Shown here one piece after another: positions 1 through 64,000 of a DNA stretch of 64,000 bases. Source of the stretch: Melieria omissa (Eukaryota > Arthropoda > Insecta > Diptera > Ulidiidae); the NCBI GenBank assembly GCA_963971225.1, contig OZ020267.1, positions 121,327,891 to 121,391,890 on the forward strand, written 5' to 3'. The position numbers and the translations under genes are program-made. Numbering within the stretch: the stretch's first letter is position 1; every line of letters starts with the position of its first letter. Below the pieces are notes generated by a model. It did not search any database, was not told where the DNA came from, and was given only the letters and a program-made list of their open reading frames with translations.

Positions 1-354
1 AAGAGATTAGAGCTAATAAGTAAGTTTAACCAACAAAAAAAGCCATCACTACCCCCACCCCCTCCGCCTTTGGCTTATATCCCTACAACCAGGACAAACA
101 AGTCTTATTCTGAGGCCTTGAAAGCAAATAGTCAAGCTAATACTTCAAACTATCCCAAAGCTAGAACCACCCAAAGCACAGACTCAACATTCAACATGAT
201 CAGCAATGATTGCGAGAGGTTGCTAGGGCGAGATTTCTTTACTTGCCTTAATAAAGTAAAGGAATTCTCCACATACTATAATGCTCTCGTCAACGACGAA
301 GACAAATCCAAGGCACTATTTAAACTTTTCATAGACCTTCGCATTGACACCTAA
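1..354 (+). CDS. ORF1 (gag-like) C-terminal part of the retrotransposon
   Basis: The frame is open from the first base to the TAA at 352-354, so only the last 117 codons are present. It has a proline run (codons 18-23 or so), then a Ser/Thr/Asn-rich stretch and a short helical-looking C-terminus. No CCHC zinc knuckle is visible; in Jockey-type ORF1 proteins the knuckles lie further upstream. ORF1 proteins of this class bind element RNA and form the RNP. The start lies beyond the left edge. The assignment rests mainly on its position just before ORF2. Confidence 0.6.
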   Translation, partial: KRLELISKFNQQKKPSLPPPPPPLAYIPTTRTNKSYSEALKANSQANTSNYPKARTTQSTDSTFNMISNDCERLLGRDFFTCLNKVKEFSTYYNALVNDEDKSKALFKLFIDLRIDT

Positions 355-3313
355 GAATTTAAAATGTTTCTTCATAAATGTTTGTTCACTGGTTAGTAAG
401 AGAAAGAGACACTCCTTCAACCTGTTTTTGAAACATCATAAGCCAGACATTGTTTTAATTGCAGAGCATAAATTGAATCACAGACACAAGCTGTCGTTCA
501 CTAATTATGAACTCATAAGGGATGATCGTACCTCTGGCAGAGGTGGTGGTACAGCAATCTGTATCAAAGACTCCTTCGTTTATCAGAAAGTCACATGCAA
601 CACTTGTGTAATTGAAAATACCACCATCACAATTAATCTCAGCAACAACACAACAATAGCATTCATCTCAGCTTATAACAAACCTTCTAACACCCTTACA
701 GAATCTGATTTAAACACCTTAATCAGCTCCTCTAATACAGAGCAAATAGTCCTGGGTGGAGATTTTAACGCTAGACACCGCAATTGGGGAGACACGGTCT
801 GCAATAGAAATGGGAATATTTTGTCTGAATGGCTTTTAAAAACCCCCTCCATGCAAATCAATCCAACTAAAAATCCAACGAGGAACAATTCATATTTAGA
901 CCTTTTCATCACCTCCTTACCAATTTGTACAAACTACCACACAGACTTCCTGAATACCCTCAGAACTTTTGACTTTGACTCCGATCATGACGCAGTTGAA
1001 CTTCTAATAGTAACCAGTGATTTTCTACGAAAGTCACCGGAAACAACTCTAGATTGGAATAAAATTAATATAAAGTTGTTCAACAGCGTACTATATGAAA
1101 ACCTTAATAGCCATGTCTTACCCAACAATAGAGTAGCATCTATAACTGAAATAGATAACTGTATTTCCTATATAAATCAATCTTTCCAAACTGCTATCGA
1201 AGCTGCTGTACCCAAAGTAAAAATTCAAAGAAAAGGTCAAATTAACCTCCCACAAAATATCTTGCATTATATCCAGGAAAAAAAGAGGCTACGTAGAGCG
1301 GCATATAGATGCGTCGACCCGGACCGGAAAAACACCTTAAAAGCAATTATACGCAACATTGAAAAAATCGTCCAGGAGCTAATTCAGCTACACGAAGAAA
1401 AATACTGGGACAACTTCTTCAAAAAGATTAGAATGAATAATCAGACCTATAAGAAAATCAAAAACCTAAGTGGAACAAACAGCAAAATCGAATTGCCCAC
1501 CATCGTGGATGACAATGGGAACACTCACACTGAAAATTTTCACAAAATAAATGTATTGGCTGATCGTTTTGAGAAAGTTCATTTAAGAGATCAAGATATG
1601 CCCAACCAGCCTCATGATAATCTAGTCCGTAGCTCAATATCCGTTTTAAGAAACAACGTCCCAATCATTTCCTTTGATAATGAAATCACTGCGGACGGCG
1701 AATCTGATAAGTTGACAAACCATGCTCCCGACATCGTAGAAAATTACGCACATCTCACCACGTCAGAAGATATTGCCTTCGGTATCTATTTCACTAACAA
1801 TAAAAAAAGTTATGGCGACGATAGGATCCCGAACTTTCTACTAAGAAAAACTTCTGCTTTCTTTTGCGACTTCCTTGCAATTCTATTCAATCAGTCCTAC
1901 AACATTGGCTATTTTCCTGAATCATGGAAATGTGCCAAAATTATCCCAGTCTTAAAACCAAAGTCAGATCCGAATTTAGCCAATAACTACAGACCAATTT
2001 CCCTGTTGTCTAATATTAGTAAATTATTTGAGAGGATTCTTCTGGGAAAACTTAAAACGCATATCGTGGAAAGTAAGATCTTAAAAGACAATCAATTTGG
2101 TTTTAAAACTCTTCACTCTACCAACCACGCCCTAACCGTGCTTTCTGACTTCATTACCACTAACTTAAACAAACGCCAAGCCACCATAGCAGTGGCATTA
2201 GATCTTGAAAAAGCTTTTGATACAGTTTGGATTGAAGGAATTATATACAAAATGTACAACACTTTCCAGTTTGACAAGCACATCTGTAGATTTCTCCTAA
2301 ACTACTTAACAGATCGCTCATTCTATGTAACCCACAAGGACGAAAATTCCATAATAAAACCAATTGCGGCAGGTGTCCCCCAAGGATCCATTCTTGGCCC
2401 TATCCTATATAACATCTACCTAGCTGACATACAGAACCCAGAACCCGAATCCAATAAACAAATAATCATATATGCTGACGACATTCTTATTCTTGGATCC
2501 AAACCTAGAATTTCAATAATGAACAAAGAGATTAATCAATACCTCTCCGAGTTGTCCCCTTACTTTGAGAAGTGGAAACTAAAACTGAACACTGCCAAAA
2601 GCGAATGCGTCTTATTTACAGGAGTTAAAAAGTACCTATACCCCAATGCCAGAAAATTCTCTCCTAACATTATGTTCAACCAATCTAGAATAGCCAACAA
2701 GGAACAAATTAAATACTTAGGTGTCGTTTTGCACAAATCTTTCAAGTTCTACCGGCACATGGACTACATTCTCTCTAAAGCCAAAAATTGTTTCCATGCT
2801 TATTATGGGATACTGAGGAGAGCTAAGAGCCTGAAAATGCGCATTAAACTAAATTGCTACAAACAACTCATTAGGCCAATTCTTACGTATGCCTTCCCCA
2901 TATGGTTTGATATATCTTCGCACCAAATGGAAAGGTTACGCACGTTTGAACGAAAGATTTTACGCATCTGCTCCGGCACCACAACAACTTGGGTCAATGG
3001 CACATACAAATGCATATCAAACTACAGACTTTATAAAAAATGCAAAACGGAAAGAATCGACTGTCACTTAGTAAAGGCAGCGGTAAGATTCCTAGATAAT
3101 TTAGGAAGACTGGACAATAATCTAGTCAAAAAATACCTACTAAAGGAACCAAATATACCTTTCCCATTTCAAGATAAATTCCTATCACCTATCCATCTGC
3201 GAATTTTGTTAAGAAACAATCAGGTCTTCCGACAGGAAAAGCTTTTGTTCTACCACAGGCGATTCCGCACATTTAATATCAATGATCCAATTTACTGTAC
3301 TCATCAATTCTGA
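335..3313 (+). CDS. ORF2 endonuclease / reverse transcriptase of the retrotransposon
   Basis: About 990 residues without an internal stop. Counting from the TTG at 344, the N-terminal apurinic-type endonuclease has GGDFNARHRNWGD (D140, N142) and the SDHD motif (H215). The reverse transcriptase has palm motif A ALDLEKAFD (D620), the GVPQGSILGP motif, and the YADD active site at 710-713. After the thumb the protein ends without an RNase H domain, as in Jockey relatives. It would nick target DNA and copy the element RNA in place. The frame opens at 335 after a TAG at 332-334 and overlaps the end of ORF1 by 20 bases. No ATG precedes the endonuclease motifs, so the start is uncertain (reinitiation or frameshifting). 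The uninterrupted frame suggests a recent insertion. Confidence 0.88.
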   Translation, partial: TFALTPKNLKCFFINVCSLVSKRKRHSFNLFLKHHKPDIVLIAEHKLNHRHKLSFTNYELIRDDRTSGRGGGTAICIKDSFVYQKVTCNTCVIENTTITINLSNNTTIAFISAYNKPSNTLTESDLNTLISSSNTEQIVLGGDFNARHRNWGDTVCNRNGNILSEWLLKTPSMQINPTKNPTRNNSYLDLFITSLPICTNYHTDFLNTLRTFDFDSDHDAVELLIVTSDFLRKSPETTLDWNKINIKLFNSVLYENLNSHVLPNNRVASITEIDNCISYINQSFQTAIEAAVPKVKIQRKGQINLPQNILHYIQEKKRLRRAAYRCVDPDRKNTLKAIIRNIEKIVQELIQLHEEKYWDNFFKKIRMNNQTYKKIKNLSGTNSKIELPTIVDDNGNTHTENFHKINVLADRFEKVHLRDQDMPNQPHDNLVRSSISVLRNNVPIISFDNEITADGESDKLTNHAPDIVENYAHLTTSEDIAFGIYFTNNKKSYGDDRIPNFLLRKTSAFFCDFLAILFNQSYNIGYFPESWKCAKIIPVLKPKSDPNLANNYRPISLLSNISKLFERILLGKLKTHIVESKILKDNQFGFKTLHSTNHALTVLSDFITTNLNKRQATIAVALDLEKAFDTVWIEGIIYKMYNTFQFDKHICRFLLNYLTDRSFYVTHKDENSIIKPIAAGVPQGSILGPILYNIYLADIQNPEPESNKQIIIYADDILILGSKPRISIMNKEINQYLSELSPYFEKWKLKLNTAKSECVLFTGVKKYLYPNARKFSPNIMFNQSRIANKEQIKYLGVVLHKSFKFYRHMDYILSKAKNCFHAYYGILRRAKSLKMRIKLNCYKQLIRPILTYAFPIWFDISSHQMERLRTFERKILRICSGTTTTWVNGTYKCISNYRLYKKCKTERIDCHLVKAAVRFLDNLGRLDNNLVKKYLLKEPNIPFPFQDKFLSPIHLRILLRNNQVFRQEKLLFYHRRFRTFNINDPIYCTHQF

Positions 3314-3610
3314 TGTGTACTCCTCCATGTGTACAAAGTGTATAGTGTATATAGTGTTACTTAGTTTAAGTTAGAATAAGCTAATATAAACAAAATGAAA
3401 ATGTGATTCCCTTTTTTACATGCCCTTTTTAGGGAAATACTACAATGTAACAGATCTCAAATAAACAAACATAATGTGATATTTCACTACTTGAATGTAA
3501 ACACTCCTAGATAAATATTTTATGTGCTAGGAAATCATTAATGTACTTAATGTTAACTAGATTTAGTCTTACTTATGTACCAATGAAATAATGGGCAATA
3601 AATATCATCT
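3314..3610 (+). other. 3' UTR of the retrotransposon and junction with histone unit 1
   Basis: AT-rich sequence with no gene. It holds AATAAA-type signals at about 3461 and 3598 and lacks a long poly(A) tail. The last bases (CTGTATCG) are shared with the intact histone promoter, so the breakpoint can be placed only within 3609-3616. Confidence 0.6.
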
Positions 3611-3647
3611 GTATCGTTAACATTTGTGTATAGTGTGTGACTAGTGA

Positions 3648-4052
<405 letters not shown>

Positions 4053-4083
4053 ACAATCGACTAATACAACAAATTACACAAAC

Positions 4084-4099
4084 CGTCCTTTTCAGGACG
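4084..4099 (+). promoter_or_regulatory. Histone mRNA 3' stem-loop, H2A copy 1
   Basis: CGTCCT-TTTC-AGGACG: a 6-bp stem and 4-base loop 32 bases after the stop, bound by SLBP in histone mRNA. A purine-rich downstream element (ACAAAGAG, about 4113-4120) follows, the expected U7 snRNA pairing site. Confidence 0.95.
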
Positions 4100-4677
4100 A
4101 CAAAATATTCGAACAAAGAGTTGAAAAATATGTTCAAACAAGAAATTATAAAAATATTTTGTCATGAAGTAAATTTTACAAAAGAAATGCTGTTGCTTGC
4201 ATAGCCGAACATAGTCTCTGAGTAAACTTTTCTATTTGTCTGCATTTCGCCATATATTAATATATATTGTGCCATATTGTAAAAGCTGTGCCATAAGGCA
4301 ATCCTGCTCCTGTCAGCATACTCGCCGCGCCGCTACTCGTAAGTGTAGCAACGAGTAGCCGGCATAAGAAGGTAGTAGTAGAAGTGAAGCAATCGAGAAC
4401 GGATCAAATAAAAGGCAGCGGCCATACAGCATTGTTAAATACATACATTGTTAAATAGTTCTAAGTTAGTTTAGTAGTTTCTTAATTTTAAATTGAAATT
4501 TATTTAGGGAAGCTGTACACACACATATACATTAAAATACAAAGTACAGTACTTTTCGCTTAAAGCGAACTTCGAGAGACTTTGTTTAAAACGAAAAATA
4601 ATCAAAATAGTTTATAAATCTTTCTGTAAATGTGTATAGTAAAATAATTCTTAAATCTTTTTGTAAATGTATTTTGT
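4100..4677. other. H2A-H4 convergent spacer, haplotype A (unit 1)
   Basis: No gene seen. It holds the downstream processing elements of both converging genes, an AT-rich block (4250-4270), a 12-bp imperfect hairpin (4329-4340 with 4351-4363, 10-base loop) in a locally GC-rich patch, and AATAAA at about 4407. The patch from about 4270 to 4450 looks unlike the surrounding AT-rich DNA and could be an old transposon remnant; I could not identify it. Haplotype A has CCATATATTAATATATATTG at the AT block. Confidence 0.6.
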
Positions 4678-4726: not shown

Positions 4727-5756
<1,030 letters not shown>

Positions 5757-5804
5757 GTCAATTTTTAAACGGTCGACACTTTCAAAAATAGCAAACAAAC
5801 AATC

Positions 5805-5820
5805 GGTCCTTTTCAGGACC
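5805..5820 (+). promoter_or_regulatory. Histone mRNA 3' stem-loop, H3 copy 1
   Basis: GGTCCT-TTTC-AGGACC, 48 bases after the stop, followed by ACAAAAGAGATT (about 5834-5845). Confidence 0.95.
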
Positions 5821-6144
5821 ACAAATTTCTATACAAAAGAGATTATTGAAAACAATTTTAACTACTTTCGATATTATTATTAAGAAAATATAGTTGTTTT
5901 TTTTTTTTAGTTTTCATGCTAACAAACATTGCAATTCACAACATAACATTTAATCAAAAAAACGTCGAAATATAAATTTTATTGCAAACATGCCAAAACA
6001 TACATTGAAAGCGAATTATGCAAATTTTCTGATTCAGAAAAATAATTCATCCATTTTGTTGAGAACATTCCCAAAAACAAAAAATATGCATTTGAATAGA
6101 AATGTACTGATATGATATGGAGGTGAATAGTCGAATAAGCATTC
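5821..6144. other. H3-5S spacer, unit 1
   Basis: AT-rich with a T10 run near 5900 and no gene seen. The last 35 bases before the 5S gene hold TATGATAT (6111-6118, -34 to -27), a plausible insect-type upstream 5S element. The matching spacers are 12678-13001, 20628-20951, 28578-28901, 35444-35767, 42287-42610, 49153-49476 and 56019-56342. Confidence 0.6.
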
Positions 6145-6264
6145 GCCAACGACCATACCACGCTGAATACATCGGTTCTCGTCCGATCACCGAAATTAAG
6201 CAGCGTCGGGCGCGGTTAGTACTTGGATGGGGGACCGCTTGGGAACACCGCGTGTTGTTGGCAT
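6145..6264 (+). rRNA. 5SrRNA: 5S ribosomal RNA, copy 1 (inside the histone unit)
   Basis: Starts GCCAACGACCATACCACGCT and ends GTGTTGTTGGC; the two ends pair as helix I. Internal control regions are intact: box A around nt 50-60 (AATTAAGCAGC), the intermediate element (CGCGGTTAG) and box C (GGATGGGGGACCGCTTGGGA). It matches the insect 5S sequence I recall with at most a base or two of difference. A T8 run at 6275-6282 is the likely Pol III terminator, giving a primary transcript near 135 nt that would need 3' trimming. TATGATAT at -34 could be an upstream promoter element. Transcribed in the same direction as H3 and H1. The exact 3' end (118-120 nt) is approximate. Confidence 0.95.
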
Positions 6265-6503
6265 TTGCCTAAACTTTTTTTTGCTCCCTCCTCCTTATTT
6301 CTTTTCAACACATTTTCATTTAATTCACATTTCGAGTTCAGTTTTTACTGAATGGTCTTTCTTATGTATGTTTCTTCTTCTTTTTTTAGAACATTTTGCC
6401 TAAACTTTTTTTTGCTCCATCCTCCTCCTTATTTCTTTTCAACACATTTTCATTTAATTCACATTTCGAGTTCAGTTTTTACTGAATGGTCTTTCTTATG
6501 TAT
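6263..6503 (+). repeat. Tandem duplication just downstream of 5S, unit 1
   Basis: A segment of about 107 bp (6263-6369), starting in the 5S trailer and including the T8 terminator, is repeated at about 6393-6503 with a 3-base insertion in its CTCC tract. Both copies end in CTTATGTAT. Present in all eight units at +917 to +1157 from the H3 start. Confidence 0.85.
6275..6282 (+). terminator. Pol III oligo-T terminator of 5S copy 1
   Basis: Eight consecutive T residues 11-18 bases after the mature 5S end. A second T8 occurs in the downstream duplicate segment near 6406-6413 and could serve as back-up. Confidence 0.75.
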
Positions 6504-6720
6504 TTTTTTTCTTCTTATTTTCAACATTTTATCATCTACAACGATTTCATTTACGTATCAGCCCATAGCTTCATAATATGCTATATTAAGATATTGTATT
6601 ACTGTTGTGAAAGATATAAGTTTTACATTTTTTAAGTCGTTTTAAGAAAATATCCCAGAACTAGAACGAAAAAAGCGTCAAATATGGTCCACGCAGTGTA
6701 GATAGAATGGGAGCACCGTA

Positions 6721-6917
6721 TAATGCAGACATACAAAATGCAGACAAGACATATTGCAGACAAATTTTGTAAATGTAGACAGGACAAAATGCAGACAAGA
6801 CAAAATACAGACAGGACAAAATGCAGACAAAACAAAATGCAGACAAAACAAAATGCAGACAAGACAAAATGACGGCAAGACAAAACGCAGACAGGACAAA
6901 ATGCAGACAAGACAAAA
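6721..6917 (+). repeat. Minisatellite, about 16-bp period (left arm), unit 1
   Basis: About twelve degenerate copies of AARACAAAATGCAGAC. The three frames read as repetitive low-complexity peptides on the minus strand and are not genes. Other units: 13578-13774, 21528-21724, 29478-29674, 36344-36540, 43187-43383, 50053-50249, 56919-57115. Confidence 0.9.
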
Positions 6918-7532
6918 ACTAAATCCAGAAACATTAATTTTAATATCGGAATGAAACTGCGTTATTAATTTAGAACAAAAGTTAGTTTATTTATGAAGAT
7001 AGTAAATTAAAATTATTAATAGTATTTACATTTTTTTTTTTAATGTATCCCAAAACTAAACTCCCATGAGGGTTATTTTTTGCAGTCCGGCCACCCAGGA
7101 AAAACTTATTGGCAAGAAAACTATGGATTTGAACAAAAAATACTGTGCACACCTGACTGTTGCTTGATGTGGTGGTGACTCCCATGAGGCTTATATTTTT
7201 AGCGCCCGGCCGAAGGCCGGCCACTTGGGAAAAACTTATTGCCAAGAAAACTATGGCTTTCGGGAAAACTGTATGCACCTCTGGGATTGCGAAAAAAAGC
7301 GCGAATTTTAAACTTTGAGCGAAATTTTAAACCTTGGGCCTCGATATCTCGAAAACGAAGCGAGATATCGAAAAATTGTATTCCTCATTTTCGACTTATT
7401 TTTGGTCAATGTATCTAAAGACACCCTCAAATGGCGGCGCCACGGAAACCGTAGTCGTGCCTTTTTTTGCATACAAAATCATGCACTGAATAAATATAGC
7501 TTCAATAATTGTTTATTGATAAAAAAAATGTG
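6918..7532. other. Region between inverted minisatellite arms, unit 1
   Basis: No gene. It contains an imperfect direct repeat of about 118 bp (7061-7178 and 7179-7285, each opening CTCCCATGAG and containing AAAACTTATTGSCAAGAAAA), a GGCCGAAGGCC palindrome near 7204, and an 11-bp perfect stem with a 9-base loop at 7341-7371 (TCGATATCTCG / CGAGATATCGA). Together with its flanking inverted arms it resembles a foldback-type or other non-autonomous element fixed in the unit. A frame of 138 codons at 7315-7731 has no recognisable domain. Confidence 0.55.
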
Positions 7533-7620
7533 TCTGTCATTTGTCTCCATTTTTCTGTATTCTGTATTTTGTCCTGTCTGCGTTTGGTCTTGTCTGCATT
7601 ACGTCTTTCTGCAATTCGTC
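7533..7620 (-). repeat. Inverted copy of the 16-bp minisatellite (right arm), unit 1
   Basis: Read on the minus strand it gives AAGACCAAACGCAGACAGG and similar copies, matching the plus-strand array at 6870-6910. Other units: 14390-14477, 22340-22427, 30290-30377, 37156-37243 (runs into the gap), 43999-44086, 50865-50952, 57731-57818. Confidence 0.8.
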
Positions 7621-8795: not shown

Positions 8796-9557
8796 ATGTC
8801 GGAATCTGCTGTAATTGCTAATGCATCATCGCCGGTTGCTGCAGCGGGAGCTACGGCTGTTGCGGAGAAAAAGGTTGCTGCCAAGAAACCGGCATCGGCA
8901 AAATCAAAGAAACCCGCAGCTGCACCAACCCATCCGTCGACACAGCAAATGGTCGATGCATCGATTAAAAATTTGAAAGAGCGCGGTGGCTCTTCACTGC
9001 TGGCCATCAAGAAATATATTAGTGCAACATATAAATGCGATGCACAAAAATTGGCTCCGTTCATAAAGAGATATTTAAAGTCTTCGGTAGTCAGCGGTAA
9101 ATTGATTCAAACTAAAGGCAAAGGTGCATCCGGATCGTTCAAGTTATCGGCAGCTGCAGCAAAACCGAAAAAAGTCGGCAGCAGTAAGCCAAAATCGTCA
9201 TCTGTGGAAAAGGGTAAAGCAAAGAAGAAGAAGAGTGGAGCATTGGGAGCTAGCAGTGCAGCCAAGAAGAAATCTTCATCGGCGATTGGCGCCAAGAAAA
9301 CGAGCAGTGACAAGGCAGCTGTAAAGGTAAAGAAAGCAGCTGTGGCTACCAAAAAGACAGCCGAAAAAAAGAAGAGTGAAAAGGCAAAAGTGAAAAGTAT
9401 CAAGAAGACTGGTACAGTTAAGGCGAAACCAGCAAAGGCAAAGCCAAGCGCCACCAAACCAAAAGCACCCAAGGTTAAAACATCTGCTGCCAAGCCAAAA
9501 AAGACTGCAACAGCGGCCAAGAAGCCAGTCGCTAAAAAAACGGCTGCCAAAAAGTAA
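8796..9557 (+). CDS. His1: Linker histone H1, copy 1
   Basis: Binds linker DNA at the nucleosome dyad and compacts chromatin. The 253 residues are close to the length of Drosophila H1. An Ala/Ser/Lys-rich N-tail (1-44) precedes a winged-helix H15 domain at about 45-118 ([20 protein letters not shown] ... GASGSFKLS), then a long Lys/Ala/Pro-rich C-tail (119-253) with KKTA and KPKAP-type repeats. Intronless; the ATG follows AAAAGGAGAA. The 147-codon frame on the opposite strand is antisense to the lysine-rich tail and is not a gene. H1 stands alone, not in a divergent pair. Confidence 0.98.
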
Positions 9558-9615
9558 GGTGTCAGTAATGGGACATTATCTATATATTTACATATATCTG
9601 AAATGATATATAAAA

Positions 9616-9631
9616 AGCCCTTTTCAGGGCT
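9616..9631 (+). promoter_or_regulatory. Histone mRNA 3' stem-loop, H1 copy 1
   Basis: AGCCCT-TTTC-AGGGCT, 58 bases after the stop; downstream element ACAAAGAGAAT at about 9646-9656. Confidence 0.95.
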
Positions 9632-9710
9632 ACAAAATCAATATACAAAGAGAATCGGAATATTTTCAAACGCTAAATATATTTTTAATAAATTGTTTAA
9701 TTGCGACGCG

Positions 9711-9764
9711 CGATTCCCGTCCGATCACAGCGTCGGGCGCGTTTAGTGGACCGCTTGGGAACAC
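9711..9764 (+). pseudogene. 5S rRNA relic in the H1-H2B spacer, unit 1
   Basis: Aligns to nt 31-104 of the intact 5S gene with two clean 11-base deletions: nt 47-57 (including box A) and nt 77-87 (part of box C). The retained blocks are CCGTCCGATCAC, AGCGTCGGGCGCG and GGACCGCTTGGGAACAC. The 5' third and the 3' end are missing or diverged, so it should not be transcribed as 5S. Confidence 0.9.
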
Positions 9765-9864
9765 AATGGCGGTGGTTCTATTTGTTTTGCATATTACGAT
9801 TAAGGAGCATAATAGGATATTTTTTAAAACAACATATAAAAATCTCTTTGTTTATATATTTTGT

Positions 9865-9880
9865 GGCCCTGAAAAGGGCC
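9865..9880 (-). promoter_or_regulatory. Histone mRNA 3' stem-loop, H2B copy 1
   Basis: Minus strand GGCCCT-TTTC-AGGGCC, 39 bases past the stop, with AAACAAAGAGATT as the downstream element (9841-9853). Confidence 0.95.
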
Positions 9881-9919
9881 TTTTGTTCTATTAACGTAGA
9901 TGTTGTAGATTGAAATTGC

Positions 9920-10291
9920 TTATTTGGAACTGGTGTATTTGGTGACGGCCTTAGTTCCCTCACTGACAGCGTGCTTCGCCAATTCACCGGGCAACAGCAG
10001 ACGAACGGCAGTCTGAATTTCGCGACTAGTGATTGTCGAACGCTTATTGTAGTGCGCCAGACGCGACGCTTCGGCAGCGATACGCTCAAAGATGTCATTC
10101 ACGAAACTGTTCATAATACTCATTGCCTTCGAAGAGATGCCAGTGTCCGGGTGGACTTGCTTCAACACTTTGTAAATGTAGATAGCGTAGCTTTCCTTCC
10201 TCTTGCGCTTCTTCTTCTTGTCGTTTTTCGTAATGTTCTTTTGCGCCTTGCCGGCCTTTTTTGCCGCTTTACCACTCGTTTTAGGAGGCAT
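9920..10291 (-). CDS. His2B: Histone H2B, copy 1
   Basis: Core histone that dimerises with H2A. The 123 residues have the Lys-rich N-tail [17 protein letters not shown], a basic [11 protein letters not shown] block, the histone fold (about 34-100) and the C-terminal helix ending AVTKYTSSK, with the conserved ubiquitinated lysine in that helix. The ATG at 10291 gives the canonical PPKT start; reading two codons further upstream would need a GTG and is rejected. Divergent from the H2A of unit 2. Confidence 0.98.
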
Positions 10292-13001: not shown

Positions 13002-13121
13002 GCCAACGACCATACCACGCTGAATACATCGGTTCTCGTCCGATCACCGAAATTAAGCAGCGTCGGGCGCGGTTAGTACTTGGATGGGGGACCGCTTGGG
13101 AACACCGCGTGTTGTTGGCAT
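13002..13121 (+). rRNA. 5SrRNA: 5S ribosomal RNA, copy 2
   Basis: Same sequence as copy 1, with intact internal control regions; T8 terminator at 13132-13139. Confidence 0.95.
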
Positions 13122-16567: not shown

Positions 16568-16621
16568 CGATTCCCGTCCGATCACAGCGTCGGGCGCGTT
16601 TAGTGGACCGCTTGGGAACAC
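16568..16621 (+). pseudogene. 5S rRNA relic, unit 2
   Basis: Same doubly deleted 5S remnant as in unit 1. Confidence 0.9.
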
Positions 16622-19015: not shown

Positions 19016-20107
19016 GTGTTAGTCAATGATAACATGATGCGAAACTGAGAGCGCTCGACCACAATACATACTCAAAATCCGCACTAATACACCGATAACA
19101 TCAGACCTTAGGGTTGATTTTGCCAAACATCAGACCCGGGGTATGCACAGAACCGTACTGTTGATTTCCCATACAAGGGCCACGGCGAGGGTTGCGTTTA
19201 CTTTCAATTTGTTAAGCATCGAAAAATCAATTGTTATTTCTTTGTAACTATGTAATCTTTTGGAAGAAAAATGATTAAAAAATTACAATATTTCCCGAAA
19301 ACCAGTTAAAAGTGTTTTGTTGTGTAATGAACGTGACTTTTTAAAAAGAAATGCGTTTGCATATGTATGTGGCTGGATATACACTAAATTATATAAGTTG
19401 CATAATTGCACAAAACCTCTTCCTTACCTTGGTTATGAAGTAATCACCGAGGATTTATTATTTTCGCTGGAAAAACAAGAATCTAGTTTTAATTTGGTGA
19501 AAGCTCCACAGGAGTTTTTGCAGTATATCTCGCAATTGGACGAGATATTTTTAGAATTGTGGGATGGAGCTTCACACAGAATTGGTGTAAGCCAATATCT
19601 GTTTTCAAAGATGGAGCATATAGCCCCATACAATTGCTGCGATAATTGCGACCGAGCACCCAACAAAAAAATCGGTAACGCGCCTTATTGCATACCTCAG
19701 TGGTGGTGCGGAAAATGCAAATTAGTTTCAATTCGATAGGCACAAAAAGATATTGTTTTCTTTTTTACATCTATATATCACTGTATATTACTACTTTTCC
19801 CTAACACTTTTATTTGAATTAAATAATTTTGATAATTTCTTATATTTTCTTCCTTATTTTACACTGCTTCTTACAATAAGACTGTGAACATACTTTTTTA
19901 CAAGTACATAAAAATTGCAACCCCGCGTTAGGAACAAATTTGCAAGTCAGCTGCTCGCTACAATACGAATTGTTCCACAAAGAGAGAAAGCTGGCAGGGT
20001 TGACGATTTTCTTTTCAGCTCACACGGATTGTGTTCGTGTGACCAAAAAAAACGACAAAATTTCGTCAATCCTCTCAGTTTCGCATCATGTTATCATTGG
20101 TGTTAGT
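19016..20107 (+). mobile_element. DNA transposon in the H3 5' leader, unit 3 (P-superfamily-like), with TSD
   Basis: The 1076-bp element (19024..20099) is flanked by an 8-bp target-site duplication GTGTTAGT (19016-19023 and 20100-20107). It has 28-bp perfect terminal inverted repeats (19024-19051 and 20072-20099) starting CAATGATAACATGATGCG. Removing the element plus one TSD copy gives exactly the unit 2 sequence. Long TIRs, an 8-bp TSD and the transposase-like remnant suggest the P superfamily; hAT also makes 8-bp duplications, so this is an inference. With a single truncated frame it is non-autonomous. Confidence 0.9.
19275..19739 (+). pseudogene. Truncated transposase C-terminal remnant, unit 3 transposon
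   Basis: Open for 154 codons from 19275 (just after a TGA) to the TAG at 19737-19739, with no usable ATG near the start; its only internal Met is late. The stretch NAFAYVCGWIYTKL resembles the Y-V-x-G-Y segment near the C-terminus of P-element/THAP9-type transposases. Four CxxC-like cysteines follow (NCCDNC, WWCGKC). No DNA-binding domain or complete catalytic core is present. The family assignment is tentative. Confidence 0.45.
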
Positions 20108-20951: not shown

Positions 20952-21071
20952 GCCAACGACCATACCACGCTGAATACATCGGTTCTCGTCCGATCACCGA
21001 AATTAAGCAGCGTCGGGCGCGGTTAGTACTTGGATGGGGGACCGCTTGGGAACACCGCGTGTTGTTGGCAT
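20952..21071 (+). rRNA. 5SrRNA: 5S ribosomal RNA, copy 3
   Basis: Same sequence as copy 1; T8 terminator at 21082-21089. Confidence 0.95.
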
Positions 21072-24517: not shown

Positions 24518-24571
24518 CGATTCCCGTCCGATCACAGCGTCGGGCGCGTTTAGTGGACCGCTTGGGAACAC
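24518..24571 (+). pseudogene. 5S rRNA relic, unit 3
   Basis: Same doubly deleted 5S remnant as in unit 1. Confidence 0.9.
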
Positions 24572-28901: not shown

Positions 28902-29021
28902 GCCAACGACCATACCACGCTGAATACATCGGTTCTCGTCCGATCACCGAAATTAAGCAGCGTCGGGCGCGGTTAGTACTTGGATGGGGGACCGCTTGGG
29001 AACACCGCGTGTTGTTGGCAT
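28902..29021 (+). rRNA. 5SrRNA: 5S ribosomal RNA, copy 4
   Basis: Same sequence as copy 1; T8 terminator at 29032-29039. Confidence 0.95.
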
Positions 29022-32467: not shown

Positions 32468-32521
32468 CGATTCCCGTCCGATCACAGCGTCGGGCGCGTT
32501 TAGTGGACCGCTTGGGAACAC
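32468..32521 (+). pseudogene. 5S rRNA relic, unit 4
   Basis: Same doubly deleted 5S remnant as in unit 1. Confidence 0.9.
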
Positions 32522-35767: not shown

Positions 35768-35887
35768 GCCAACGACCATACCACGCTGAATACATCGGTT
35801 CTCGTCCGATCACCGAAATTAAGCAGCGTCGGGCGCGGTTAGTACTTGGATGGGGGACCGCTTGGGAACACCGCGTGTTGTTGGCAT
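35768..35887 (+). rRNA. 5SrRNA: 5S ribosomal RNA, copy 5
   Basis: Same sequence as copy 1; T8 terminator at 35898-35905. Confidence 0.95.
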
Positions 35888-35905: not shown

Positions 35906-38395
35906 GCTCCCTCCTCCTTATTTCTTTTCAACACATTTTCATTTAATTCACATTTCGAGTTCAGTTTTTACTGAATGGTCTTTCTTATGTATGTTTCTTC
36001 TTCTTTTTTTAGAACATTTTGCCTAAACTTTTTTTTGCTCCATCCTCCTCCTTATTTCTTTTCAACACATTTTCATTTAATTCACATTTCGAGTTCAGTT
36101 TTTACTGAATGGTCTTTCTTATGTATTTTTTTTCTTCTTATTTTCAACATTTTATCATCTACAACGATTTCATTTACGTATCAGCCCATAGCTTCATAAT
36201 ATGCTATATTAAGATATTGTATTACTGTTGTGAAAGATATAAGTTTTACATTTTTTAAGTCGTTTTAAGAAAATATCCCAGAACTAGAACGAAAAAAGCG
36301 TCAAATATGGTCCACGCAGTGTAGATAGAATGGGAGCACCGTATAATGCAGACATACAAAATGCAGACAAGACATATTGCAGACAAATTTTGTAAATGTA
36401 GACAGGACAAAATGCAGACAAGACAAAATACAGACAGGACAAAATGCAGACAAAACAAAATGCAGACAAAACAAAATGCAGACAAGACAAAATGACGGCA
36501 AGACAAAACGCAGACAGGACAAAATGCAGACAAGACAAAAACTAAATCCAGAAACATTAATTTTAATATCGGAATGAAACTGCGTTATTAATTTAGAACA
36601 AAAGTTAGTTTATTTATGAAGATAGTAAATTAAAATTATTAATAGTATTTACATTTTTTTTTTTAATGTATCCCAAAACTAAACTCCCATGAGGGTTATT
36701 TTTTGCAGTCCGGCCACCCAGGAAAAACTTATTGGCAAGAAAACTATGGATTTGAACAAAAAATACTGTGCACACCTGACTGTTGCTTGATGTGGTGGTG
36801 ACTCCCATGAGGCTTATATTTTTAGCGCCCGGCCGAAGGCCGGCCACTTGGGAAAAACTTATTGCCAAGAAAACTATGGCTTTCGGGAAAACTGTATGCA
36901 CCTCTGGGATTGCGAAAAAAAGCGCGAATTTTAAACTTTGAGCGAAATTTTAAACCTTGGGCCTCGATATCTCGAAAACGAAGCGAGATATCGAAAAATT
37001 GTATTCCTCATTTTCGACTTATTTTTGGTCAATGTATCTAAAGACACCCTCAAATGGCGGCGCCACGGAAACCGTAGTCGTGCCTTTTTTTGCATACAAA
37101 ATCATGCACTGAATAAATATAGCTTCAATAATTGTTTATTGATAAAAAAAATGTGTCTGTCATTTGTCTCCATTTTTCTGTATTCTGTATTTTGTCCTGT
37201 CTGCGTTTGGTCTTGTCTGCATTACGTCTTTCTGCAATTCGTCNNNNNNNNNNNNNNNNNNNNNNNNNNNNNNNNNNNNNNNNNNNNNNNNNNNNNNNNN
37301 NNNNNNNNNNNNNNNNNNNNNNNNNNNNNNNNNNNNNNNNNNNNNNNNNNNNNNNNNNNNNNNNNNNNNNNNNNNNNNNNNNNNNNNNNNNNNNNNNNNN
37401 NNNNNNNNNNNNNNNNNNNNNNNNNNNNNNNNNNNNNNNNNNNCATTTTCACCTTTTGTATGGTTTCCGAAAAGACTTAATAATTTAAGCACATTTTTTT
37501 AAATCAATGAAATGTATTATATATAAACTTATTCTTTTCTTTTTTGTGTGCTATTATTTTTTGTTTTTAAATATGCATACATCGGTATTTAGAAACAATA
37601 AAAATACAAATACTCCATTTTATATGCCAACAAGTGAGCATAACATACATAAAATTCTTGTGGGAAGACAGTTGACGCATTTGACAAAGAAAATACTATG
37701 AAATTAATGATTTTAATAGAATATTACTTCCAGTAAATAGTTTTGAATATTTAAATTATATTGAAAATTAAATATAGATGATTTTGTATGCTAATTATAA
37801 AAATCGAACCGAGTTGAGCTAAGATATTCGATTTGCAAAACGTATACTTGGTAGACTTTCGGTAAGTTGAGAGCAATTGTAAAATATTTTTTTTAACTGT
37901 TGCATTCAATAAATGTGAATAAATTTCATTTAAATACTATGTAAATTGTTCAAAATCATATATAAATGCAACTTTAACTATTTATTGAATGTATAAGTGG
38001 TAAAATGTTAAGTTTTTTCTATGAAATTTCATAATAAATCAGGCAAAGTTTATGTTTGACTGCATTTAAAACTGTCATCATAACAAATATGAGGCAAATA
38101 TATTAAAAATGCGAAAGATCAATATTTGGTAAATATTAATGGGTGATTTGTTTGAATGGAAATGGAAAAGTAATGTTTTAAAAAATTAAAATTCTATTTG
38201 AAGATGACTATTAGAAAATGTTCACAACTACTGACTGGTAAATTATTATCATATATCCCTTCTACATGAGTCTCACTTTTTCAAGGGACTTAAACTTGTG
38301 TTCTGTGAGTCACTGAATTTTATTGAATTTGAATTGTGTTGCGTAGCGTTTTGTTACGAATTGAATTGGGAAAAAGTGTAAAGTGAAAAGGAGAA
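35906..38395. other. 5S-H1 spacer, unit 5, with gap
   Basis: Minisatellite 36344-36540; the inverted arm 37156-37243 runs straight into the gap. No gene seen; frames crossing the Ns are artefacts. Confidence 0.6.
37244..37443. other. Assembly gap, 200 Ns
   Basis: Flanked by ...GCAATTCGTC and CATTTTCACC..., which in the other units are separated by 223 bases (7621-7843 in unit 1). The gap size is a placeholder. Confidence 0.98.
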
Positions 38396-39310: not shown

Positions 39311-39364
39311 CGATTCCCGTCCGATCACAGCGTCGGGCGCGTTTAGTGGACCGCTTGGGAACAC
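39311..39364 (+). pseudogene. 5S rRNA relic, unit 5
   Basis: Same doubly deleted 5S remnant as in unit 1. Confidence 0.9.
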
Positions 39365-42610: not shown

Positions 42611-42730
42611 GCCAACGACCATACCACGCTGAATACATCGGTTCTCGTCCGATCACCGAAATTAAGCAGCGTCGGGCGCGGTTAGTACTTGGATGGGGGA
42701 CCGCTTGGGAACACCGCGTGTTGTTGGCAT
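42611..42730 (+). rRNA. 5SrRNA: 5S ribosomal RNA, copy 6
   Basis: Same sequence as copy 1; T8 terminator at 42741-42748. Confidence 0.95.
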
Positions 42731-46176: not shown

Positions 46177-46230
46177 CGATTCCCGTCCGATCACAGCGTC
46201 GGGCGCGTTTAGTGGACCGCTTGGGAACAC
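46177..46230 (+). pseudogene. 5S rRNA relic, unit 6
   Basis: Same doubly deleted 5S remnant as in unit 1. Confidence 0.9.
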
Positions 46231-49476: not shown

Positions 49477-49596
49477 GCCAACGACCATACCACGCTGAAT
49501 ACATCGGTTCTCGTCCGATCACCGAAATTAAGCAGCGTCGGGCGCGGTTAGTACTTGGATGGGGGACCGCTTGGGAACACCGCGTGTTGTTGGCAT
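49477..49596 (+). rRNA. 5SrRNA: 5S ribosomal RNA, copy 7
   Basis: Same sequence as copy 1; T8 terminator at 49607-49614. Confidence 0.95.
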
Positions 49597-53042: not shown

Positions 53043-53096
53043 CGATTCCCGTCCGATCACAGCGTCGGGCGCGTTTAGTGGACCGCTTGGGAACAC
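53043..53096 (+). pseudogene. 5S rRNA relic, unit 7
   Basis: Same doubly deleted 5S remnant as in unit 1. Confidence 0.9.
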
Positions 53097-56342: not shown

Positions 56343-56462
56343 GCCAACGACCATACCACGCTGAATACATCGGTTCTCGTCCGATCACCGAAATTAAGCA
56401 GCGTCGGGCGCGGTTAGTACTTGGATGGGGGACCGCTTGGGAACACCGCGTGTTGTTGGCAT
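56343..56462 (+). rRNA. 5SrRNA: 5S ribosomal RNA, copy 8
   Basis: Same sequence as copy 1; T8 terminator at 56473-56480. Confidence 0.95.
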
Positions 56463-59908: not shown

Positions 59909-59962
59909 CGATTCCCGTCCGATCACAGCGTCGGGCGCGTTTAGTGGACCGCTTGGGAACAC
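59909..59962 (+). pseudogene. 5S rRNA relic, unit 8
   Basis: Same doubly deleted 5S remnant as in unit 1. Confidence 0.9.
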
Positions 59963-60327: not shown

Positions 60328-60527
60328 NNNNNNNNNNNNNNNNNNNNNNNNNNNNNNNNNNNNNNNNNNNNNNNNNNNNNNNNNNNNNNNNNNNNNNNNN
60401 NNNNNNNNNNNNNNNNNNNNNNNNNNNNNNNNNNNNNNNNNNNNNNNNNNNNNNNNNNNNNNNNNNNNNNNNNNNNNNNNNNNNNNNNNNNNNNNNNNNN
60501 NNNNNNNNNNNNNNNNNNNNNNNNNNN
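60328..60527. other. Assembly gap, 200 Ns
   Basis: Same placeholder length as the gap in unit 5. It hides the junction between the array and the flank; the true size is unknown. Confidence 0.98.
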
Positions 60528-63399: not shown

Positions 63400-64000
63400 C
63401 CAGGTATGCGCCTATGAAACCGGTAACGACATCTAGCGGTAAATAGCCGAATATTTATAAACTTCGGAACCGTACCAAATGTCATGTTTACTTCTTCTGT
63501 CATATGTCAACAATATTCAGTTCAAAATTTGTCAAGTTTCATCCAACAACGCATTGTTTGACGCTCCGGAAAATGTCGGATTACGTGCCTACAAATTACG
63601 AATATGAAGCCAGGCAACACAAAGTGATTTTCCTCGATGACAACGCACCACCACACCGCACTAGAGCCACCAAAGAATTGGTTGCATCGTACAACTGGGA
63701 AGCTCTTGCTCATGCGGCTTACTCACCAGACTTGGCGCCTTCGGATTATCACATGTTCGCATCGATGGGCCACGCATTAACGGAACAGCGCTTCAATTCT
63801 CACGCAGAAGCCAAAAAATGGATCGATGATTGGTTTCAGGCAAAAGACGAAACATTTTTTTTGGCGAGGCATCCATAAATTGCCTGAGAGATGGGAAAAA
63901 TGTGTAGCTAGCGATGGCCATTACTTTGAAGAATAAAATTGTAATCATTTCCTCACAATAAACGTGGTTTTTTTCAAAAATAATTACCGGTTTCATAGGC
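63400..64000 (+). mobile_element. Mariner-family transposon, internally deleted, right end at the window edge
   Basis: A TA dinucleotide (63398-63399) precedes CCAGGTATGCGCCTATGAA. The inner terminal repeat GCCTATGAAACCGGTAA (63410-63426) is found inverted at 63984-64000, so the element is about 0.6 kb against about 1.3 kb for an intact mariner. The outermost right bases lie outside the window. Confidence 0.85.
63573..63936 (+). pseudogene. Mariner transposase, internally deleted and frameshifted
   Basis: The ATG at 63573 starts MSDYVPTNYEYE, then the frame jumps directly to the C-terminal catalytic part: FLDDNAPPHR (second catalytic Asp) and YSPDLAPSDYHMF (third Asp). The region with the DNA-binding helices and the first catalytic Asp is missing. 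The frame stops at 63876-63878; the expected family C-terminus (HKLPERWEK ...) continues in another frame from 63874 to the TAA at 63934-63936. Not functional. Confidence 0.85.

Follow-up and report, generated by a model that had tools for sequence, protein, structure and literature searches.

The window analysed here is a 64,000-nucleotide stretch of contig OZ020267.1 of Melieria omissa (assembly GCA_963971225.1, forward-strand positions 121,327,891 to 121,391,890). Eight units of a tandem histone array are visible in it, and counts out of eight refer to these units rather than to the whole array. Open reading frames place all five histone genes in the unit, in the order H2A(+), H4(-), H3(+), 5S(+), H1(+), H2B(-), and the unit measures 6866 bp (units 6 and 7). 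In unit 1, H2A lies at 3678-4052 (+; Pfam Histone_H2A_C), H3 at 5346-5756 (+; Pfam Histone), H1 at 8796-9557 (+; Pfam Linker_histone) and H2B at 9920-10291 (-; Pfam Histone). The H4 reading frame (4727-5038, -) scores 22.9 with the Pfam model Histone, below its cut-off of 26.4, and matches the H4 stretches of two comparison loci, L002 and L003, at 87-99%. The H1 protein has its best named match in Bactrocera tryoni (69% over 78%, among the 120 of 1857 matches listed), which, taken with the retroelement at the left edge of the window, points to a likely schizophoran fly. The Rfam model RF00032 detects the 3' stem-loops of the mRNAs of H3 (5800-5846, +; 35.3 bits), H2B (9839-9885, -; 42 bits) and H1 (9611-9655, +; 29.6 bits, E 2.5e-05, which is below the gathering score of 34 bits). 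Of the five such stem-loops in unit 1, three exceed the gathering score and two fall short of it; each of the eight units has three that exceed it. The five reading frames and the 3' stem-loops are features of replication-dependent histone genes. At E up to 1, Rfam found only 5S and histone stem-loops in unit 1, with no snRNA or other RNA gene, and ARAGORN found no tRNA gene in the window.

An intact 5S rRNA gene occupies the spacer between H3 and H1. The Rfam 5S model (RF00001) gave a full-length match (model positions 1-120, 106.1 bits, E 2.9e-22) in 8/8 units, always on the strand of H3 and H1. From unit 1 to unit 8 the genes lie on the plus strand at 6145-6263, 13002-13120, 20952-21070, 28902-29020, 35768-35886, 42611-42729, 49477-49595 and 56343-56461, and the 120-bp 5S stretch has the same sequence in every unit. 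The gene starts 799 bp from the H3 ATG throughout and, in unit 1, about 300 bp past the H3 stem-loop; the distance from 5S to the H1 ATG is 2651 in seven units and 2628 in unit 5, whose spacer contains a gap of 200 N. The same place and strand recur across successive units, in all eight that the window shows, and this placement of 5S in the histone units is not chance. A preliminary description of this DNA had put an intact 5S between H3 and H1, on the same strand and at +799, which Rfam and the spacing bear out; of the interval that it gave for the gene, 6145-6264, the start stands but the end does not, as the model match stops at 6263. The predicted fold (-47.5 kcal/mol, z -2.75) is equalled by 2 of 200 shuffles. 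We take this 5S to be nearly identical to that of Drosophila melanogaster, and we infer from its undamaged sequence that the internal control regions are preserved. By BLAST (E up to 10), the window contains no further 5S-like sequence beyond the eight genes and the eight fragments described below.

A run of eight T residues (T8) begins 12 bases past the end of the gene in all eight units (6275-6282, +, in unit 1; sequence scan), where an oligo-T had already been noted. If this predicted Pol III terminator is used, the primary transcript up to T8 would be about 134 nt long, which resembles the 135 nt of the Drosophila 5S precursor. Self-BLAST and the T runs show that the trailer is tandemly duplicated (6264-6530, +), the copies at 6264-6397 and 6395-6530 being 94% identical; in unit 1 the second copy has an extra T8 at 6406-6413 without a 5S gene. 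We considered the doubled trailer as the trace of a lost second 5S and rejected this idea, because the junction, judged by eye, resembles a plain tandem duplication with a short shared ATTT.

Each unit holds a second 5S-derived piece, between the converging H1 and H2B genes, with the H1 stem-loop ahead of it and the H2B stem-loop on its far side. This decayed fragment lies on the plus strand at 9711-9764, 16568-16621, 24518-24571, 32468-32521, 39311-39364, 46177-46230, 53043-53096 and 59909-59962 (units 1 to 8), and its sequence is identical in 8/8 units. The earlier count of one 5S per unit thus holds for the intact gene but overlooked the fragment. Between 5S positions 29 and 104 the fragment keeps 54 of 76 positions (29-45, 57-76 and 88-104) with 3 mismatches, making it about 94% identical in its gene part, and lacks the 11-base blocks 46-56 and 77-87. 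In unit 1 it stands out as a GC-rich patch (63% vs 27% in the surroundings). The fragment was established by BLAST, alignment, and shuffle and tile controls. Its alignment with 5S scores 81.5 (81.0 for the core). All shuffled sequences stayed below this, the highest scores being 46.0 for the region (1000 shuffles), 48.5 for the core (2000 shuffles) and 58.5 for the 5S gene (2000 shuffles). Among 2996 tiles of the 13 other loci, with the real 5S of L002 set aside, the best score was 50.0; it was 39.0 for 296 tiles taken from unit 1 and the window flanks, with both 5S places left out. Significant similarity to 5S, two losses of 11 bases and two unrecognisable ends identify the fragment as a 5S pseudogene. 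An Rfam scan of unit 1 with E up to 1 leaves it unlisted, which makes it easy to overlook. Its predicted RNA fold is unremarkable, being equalled by 123 of 200 shuffles. The two lost blocks fall at the sites of the principal internal promoter boxes, which in Drosophila 5S lie at about 48-61 and 78-98, so the fragment would be expected to be silent.

Repeats that join histone genes and 5S are already known from other animals, and the array in the window has the features tested for this kind. The Artemia repeat was reportedly described by Andrews in 1987 and by Cruces in 1989, the Asellus aquaticus unit by Barzotti in 2000, and 5S linkage across animals is said to have been surveyed by Vierna in 2013. 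The preliminary description was right in naming Artemia and molluscs as precedents; the range is wider and takes in isopods, hydroids and, by FISH, beetles. In Artemia, 5S is reported within the tandem histone unit (PMC3215682, PMC4106214, PMC5011920), which combines it with core and linker histones (PMC4106214) as the window unit does; unlike Melieria, Artemia is a crustacean, and the available passages citing its repeat do not mention a decayed second 5S. Hydractinia echinata has 5S in the tandem unit of its canonical histones, where it is reported as transcribed, together with U1, U2 and an Arg tRNA (PMC5011920), whereas Rfam and ARAGORN find none of these additional genes in the window unit. 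Another arthropod, Asellus aquaticus, is cited for a tandem histone unit with 5S (PMC3215682, PMC4106214); that unit is described as having core histones only, without H1 (PMC4106214), while the window unit has H1. Mytilus is listed with a five-histone unit with 5S, in the order h4, h2b, h2a, h3, h1 (PMC4106214), and so resembles the window in its five histones and 5S but differs in being a mollusc. Scarab beetles and grasshoppers, which are insects, are reported to have co-localised 5S and H3 on their chromosomes (PMC3209441; review PMC11354594). The basis there is chromosome mapping, as against sequence here, and the beetle authors state that molecular studies are still required to confirm the linkage (PMC3209441). 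Among Diptera, the tandem unit of Rhynchosciara americana is given as four core histones plus H1 in 5131 bp (PMC5127150), compared with 6866 bp here, and the main text on that unit never uses the terms '5S rRNA', '5S rDNA' and 'ribosomal'. The same source puts the histone units of D. hydei, D. melanogaster and C. thummi at 5153, 5041 and 6271 bp (PMC5127150). Within the open-licence literature, the titles and abstract openings of the matches listed disclosed no sequenced dipteran histone-5S unit.

A search with H3 yielded 13 comparison loci, of which three (L002, L003 and L005) had four histone kinds, with core histones at high identity; only L002 had a 5S at the gathering score. There, U2, U1, 5S and the four core histones lie at 118-4586, with H2B, H2A, H4, H3 and one 5S within 5.6 kb. 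L002 is likely an animal histone contig, apparently wrongly binned in a bacterial MAG. It resembles the window in combining histone genes with one 5S, and differs in having U1 and U2, in a 5S that adjoins H2B on the minus strand, and in giving no H1 match at E 1e-5. Locus L005 has H3, H1, H2B and H2A in the order and orientation of the window, without 5S at the gathering score; the low identity of its H1, 44% over the part that matches, rules it out as a close relative. A degenerate insect-like 5S pattern had no match in viral contigs and none in genome contigs.

A transposable element of 1076 bases is inserted in units 3 and 4. Its inverted ends are perfect over 28 bases, and the target repeats (GTGTTAGT) measure 8 bases, a size that fits the P or hAT superfamilies. 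In unit 3 it spans 19024-20099 and stops some 54 bp short of the H3 start, within the divergent promoter region of H4 and H3. The left edge of the window (1-3608) is a jockey-like non-LTR retroelement with a reverse transcriptase domain, whose best named match is in Rhagoletis zephyria (50%; unnamed matches reach 56%). To its right, the sequence of the histone unit picks up again some 69 bp before the first H2A start, and the junction corresponds to the H2A/H2B divergent promoter region of the other units. In the spacer between 5S and H1, positions 6722-7620 form inverted arms rich in cagacaagacaaaatg-like repeats, perhaps a non-autonomous element. Near the right end of the window, an open frame at 63504-63878 looks by eye like a piece of a mariner-type transposase and has no Pfam match at E 0.001.

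Any two units differ by 0-12 substitutions, and 13 sites vary across the eight, none of them in 5S (indels, gaps and the sequence beyond the gap in unit 8 were left out). From 13 sites over about 6.9 kb, some 0.2 variable sites would be expected in a 5S gene of 119 bp, so that its invariance is weak evidence in itself. Five variants set units 1 and 2 apart from the rest, and one is common to units 7 and 8, a pattern that fits spread between neighbours. Units 3 and 4 are identical, so the interrupted unit itself was likely duplicated; the shared variants, and the insertion common to these two units, fit spreading by unequal exchange or conversion. In this one array of one animal, 5S and the histone genes evolve in concert, in agreement with the linkage and joint homogenisation proposed at the outset. 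Two assembly gaps of 200 N interrupt the array, at 37244-37443 in the spacer of unit 5 and at 60328-60527, where the gap cuts the H2B of unit 8; no histone open reading frame is listed in the window past the second. Gaps of this sort, in arrays that are hard to assemble, might raise the suspicion that 5S was misassembled into the histone units. Yet the same junctions recur in all eight units, which can be told apart by their variants and by the insertion confined to units 3 and 4, and we regard such an artefact as extremely improbable.

The origin of the decayed fragment can be approached through its similarity and its flanks. It scores 81 against the 5S of the window and 47.5 against that of L002, and hence derives from a 5S similar to the one that this animal has. 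When the surroundings of the fragment were compared with those of the intact gene, 749 of 2000 shuffles were as good for the upstream side and 1864 of 2000 for the downstream side with the trailer. The bases directly before the fragment are weakly similar to 5S positions 1-32, a level that 49 of 2000 shuffles reached; the bases directly after it have no likeness to positions 105-119 plus trailer (1170 of 2000). Including the flanks raised the alignment score from 81.5 to 102.5 (+21); shuffled flanks averaged 98.9 and 253 of 1000 did as well, so the rise carries no meaning. A segmental duplication of the resident 5S was rejected as the source since the flanks are at chance level against those of the intact gene, which leaves two origins, an independent arrival or the copying of the gene body only. 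The former is the likely one and the one that we prefer, and 5S DNA thus likely entered this histone array more than once. That the fragment is instead a partial copy of the resident 5S, made within the unit by ectopic repair, is conceivable and would agree with its nearness to this animal's 5S (the 3 mismatches in 54 retained core positions), its distance from the 5S of L002 and its location on the same strand and in the same unit as the intact gene. We hold this to be somewhat improbable, as neither flank of the intact gene is recognisable beside a fragment whose gene part has kept about 94% identity. Copying of the gene body alone from the resident 5S would also be compatible with the flank tests, so two entries are likely rather than certain; the order in which the two pieces entered is not datable, because homogenisation resets divergence.

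The intact 5S looks able to work, because it is complete, folds well and is followed by T8 in 8/8 units, and we consider it likely to be still working. It could also be a passive passenger, intact only through recent homogenisation while a separate 5S array supplies the ribosomes. The dead fragment is carried as faithfully in the eight units as the intact gene, so the homogenised state does not show function; variation within the array is too low for detecting selection, and transcription of the intact 5S is a prediction from sequence. Set against this are the strong match of the intact gene to the full 5S model, a fold that beats nearly all shuffles and a terminator-like run, whereas its decayed counterpart within the unit has a fold that shuffled sequence equals. 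A 5S in a histone unit is, moreover, reported as transcribed in Hydractinia (PMC5011920). We consider the passenger reading unlikely. Whether or not the gene works, nothing here shows a benefit of the linkage to the animal, and it may simply be tolerated; the authors of two of the sources likewise see no obvious advantage, since the polymerases differ (PMC3209441, PMC4106214).

We think it quite probable that the intact 5S is transcribed by Pol III and goes back to one insertion that was spread by homogenisation, with the fragment likely marking another, older entry. Under such a history, one 5S gene would have inserted between H3 and H1 of a single histone unit and retained the internal promoter and the terminator that it brought along. 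The array would then have passed it on to all units through unequal crossing-over and gene conversion, as unequal exchange or conversion would suffice to do for any one inserted 5S, and the second piece, now dead, would have spread in the same way. The need for many identical copies of both genes likely makes the pairing of histone genes and 5S tolerable. A bolder version, which we find doubtful, would make the array a repeated landing site for 5S: the first, between H1 and H2B, would have decayed, the second, between H3 and H1, would have taken over, and the entire 5S supply would now lie in the histone repeats, having replaced a free-standing array.

The histone array of Drosophila is the best studied, and the 5S genes of that fly lie in an array separate from the histone genes, whereas a likely relative here has 5S within the histone unit. 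Should every stage be represented among related flies (no 5S, the fragment only, both, or the intact gene only), the successive arrivals of a Pol III gene in a Pol II array could be put in order, and one could ask whether Pol III transcription is tolerated or used by histone locus bodies. With a live-looking and a dead 5S in one unit, this array also illustrates that under homogenisation dead copies stay just as uniform as intact ones.
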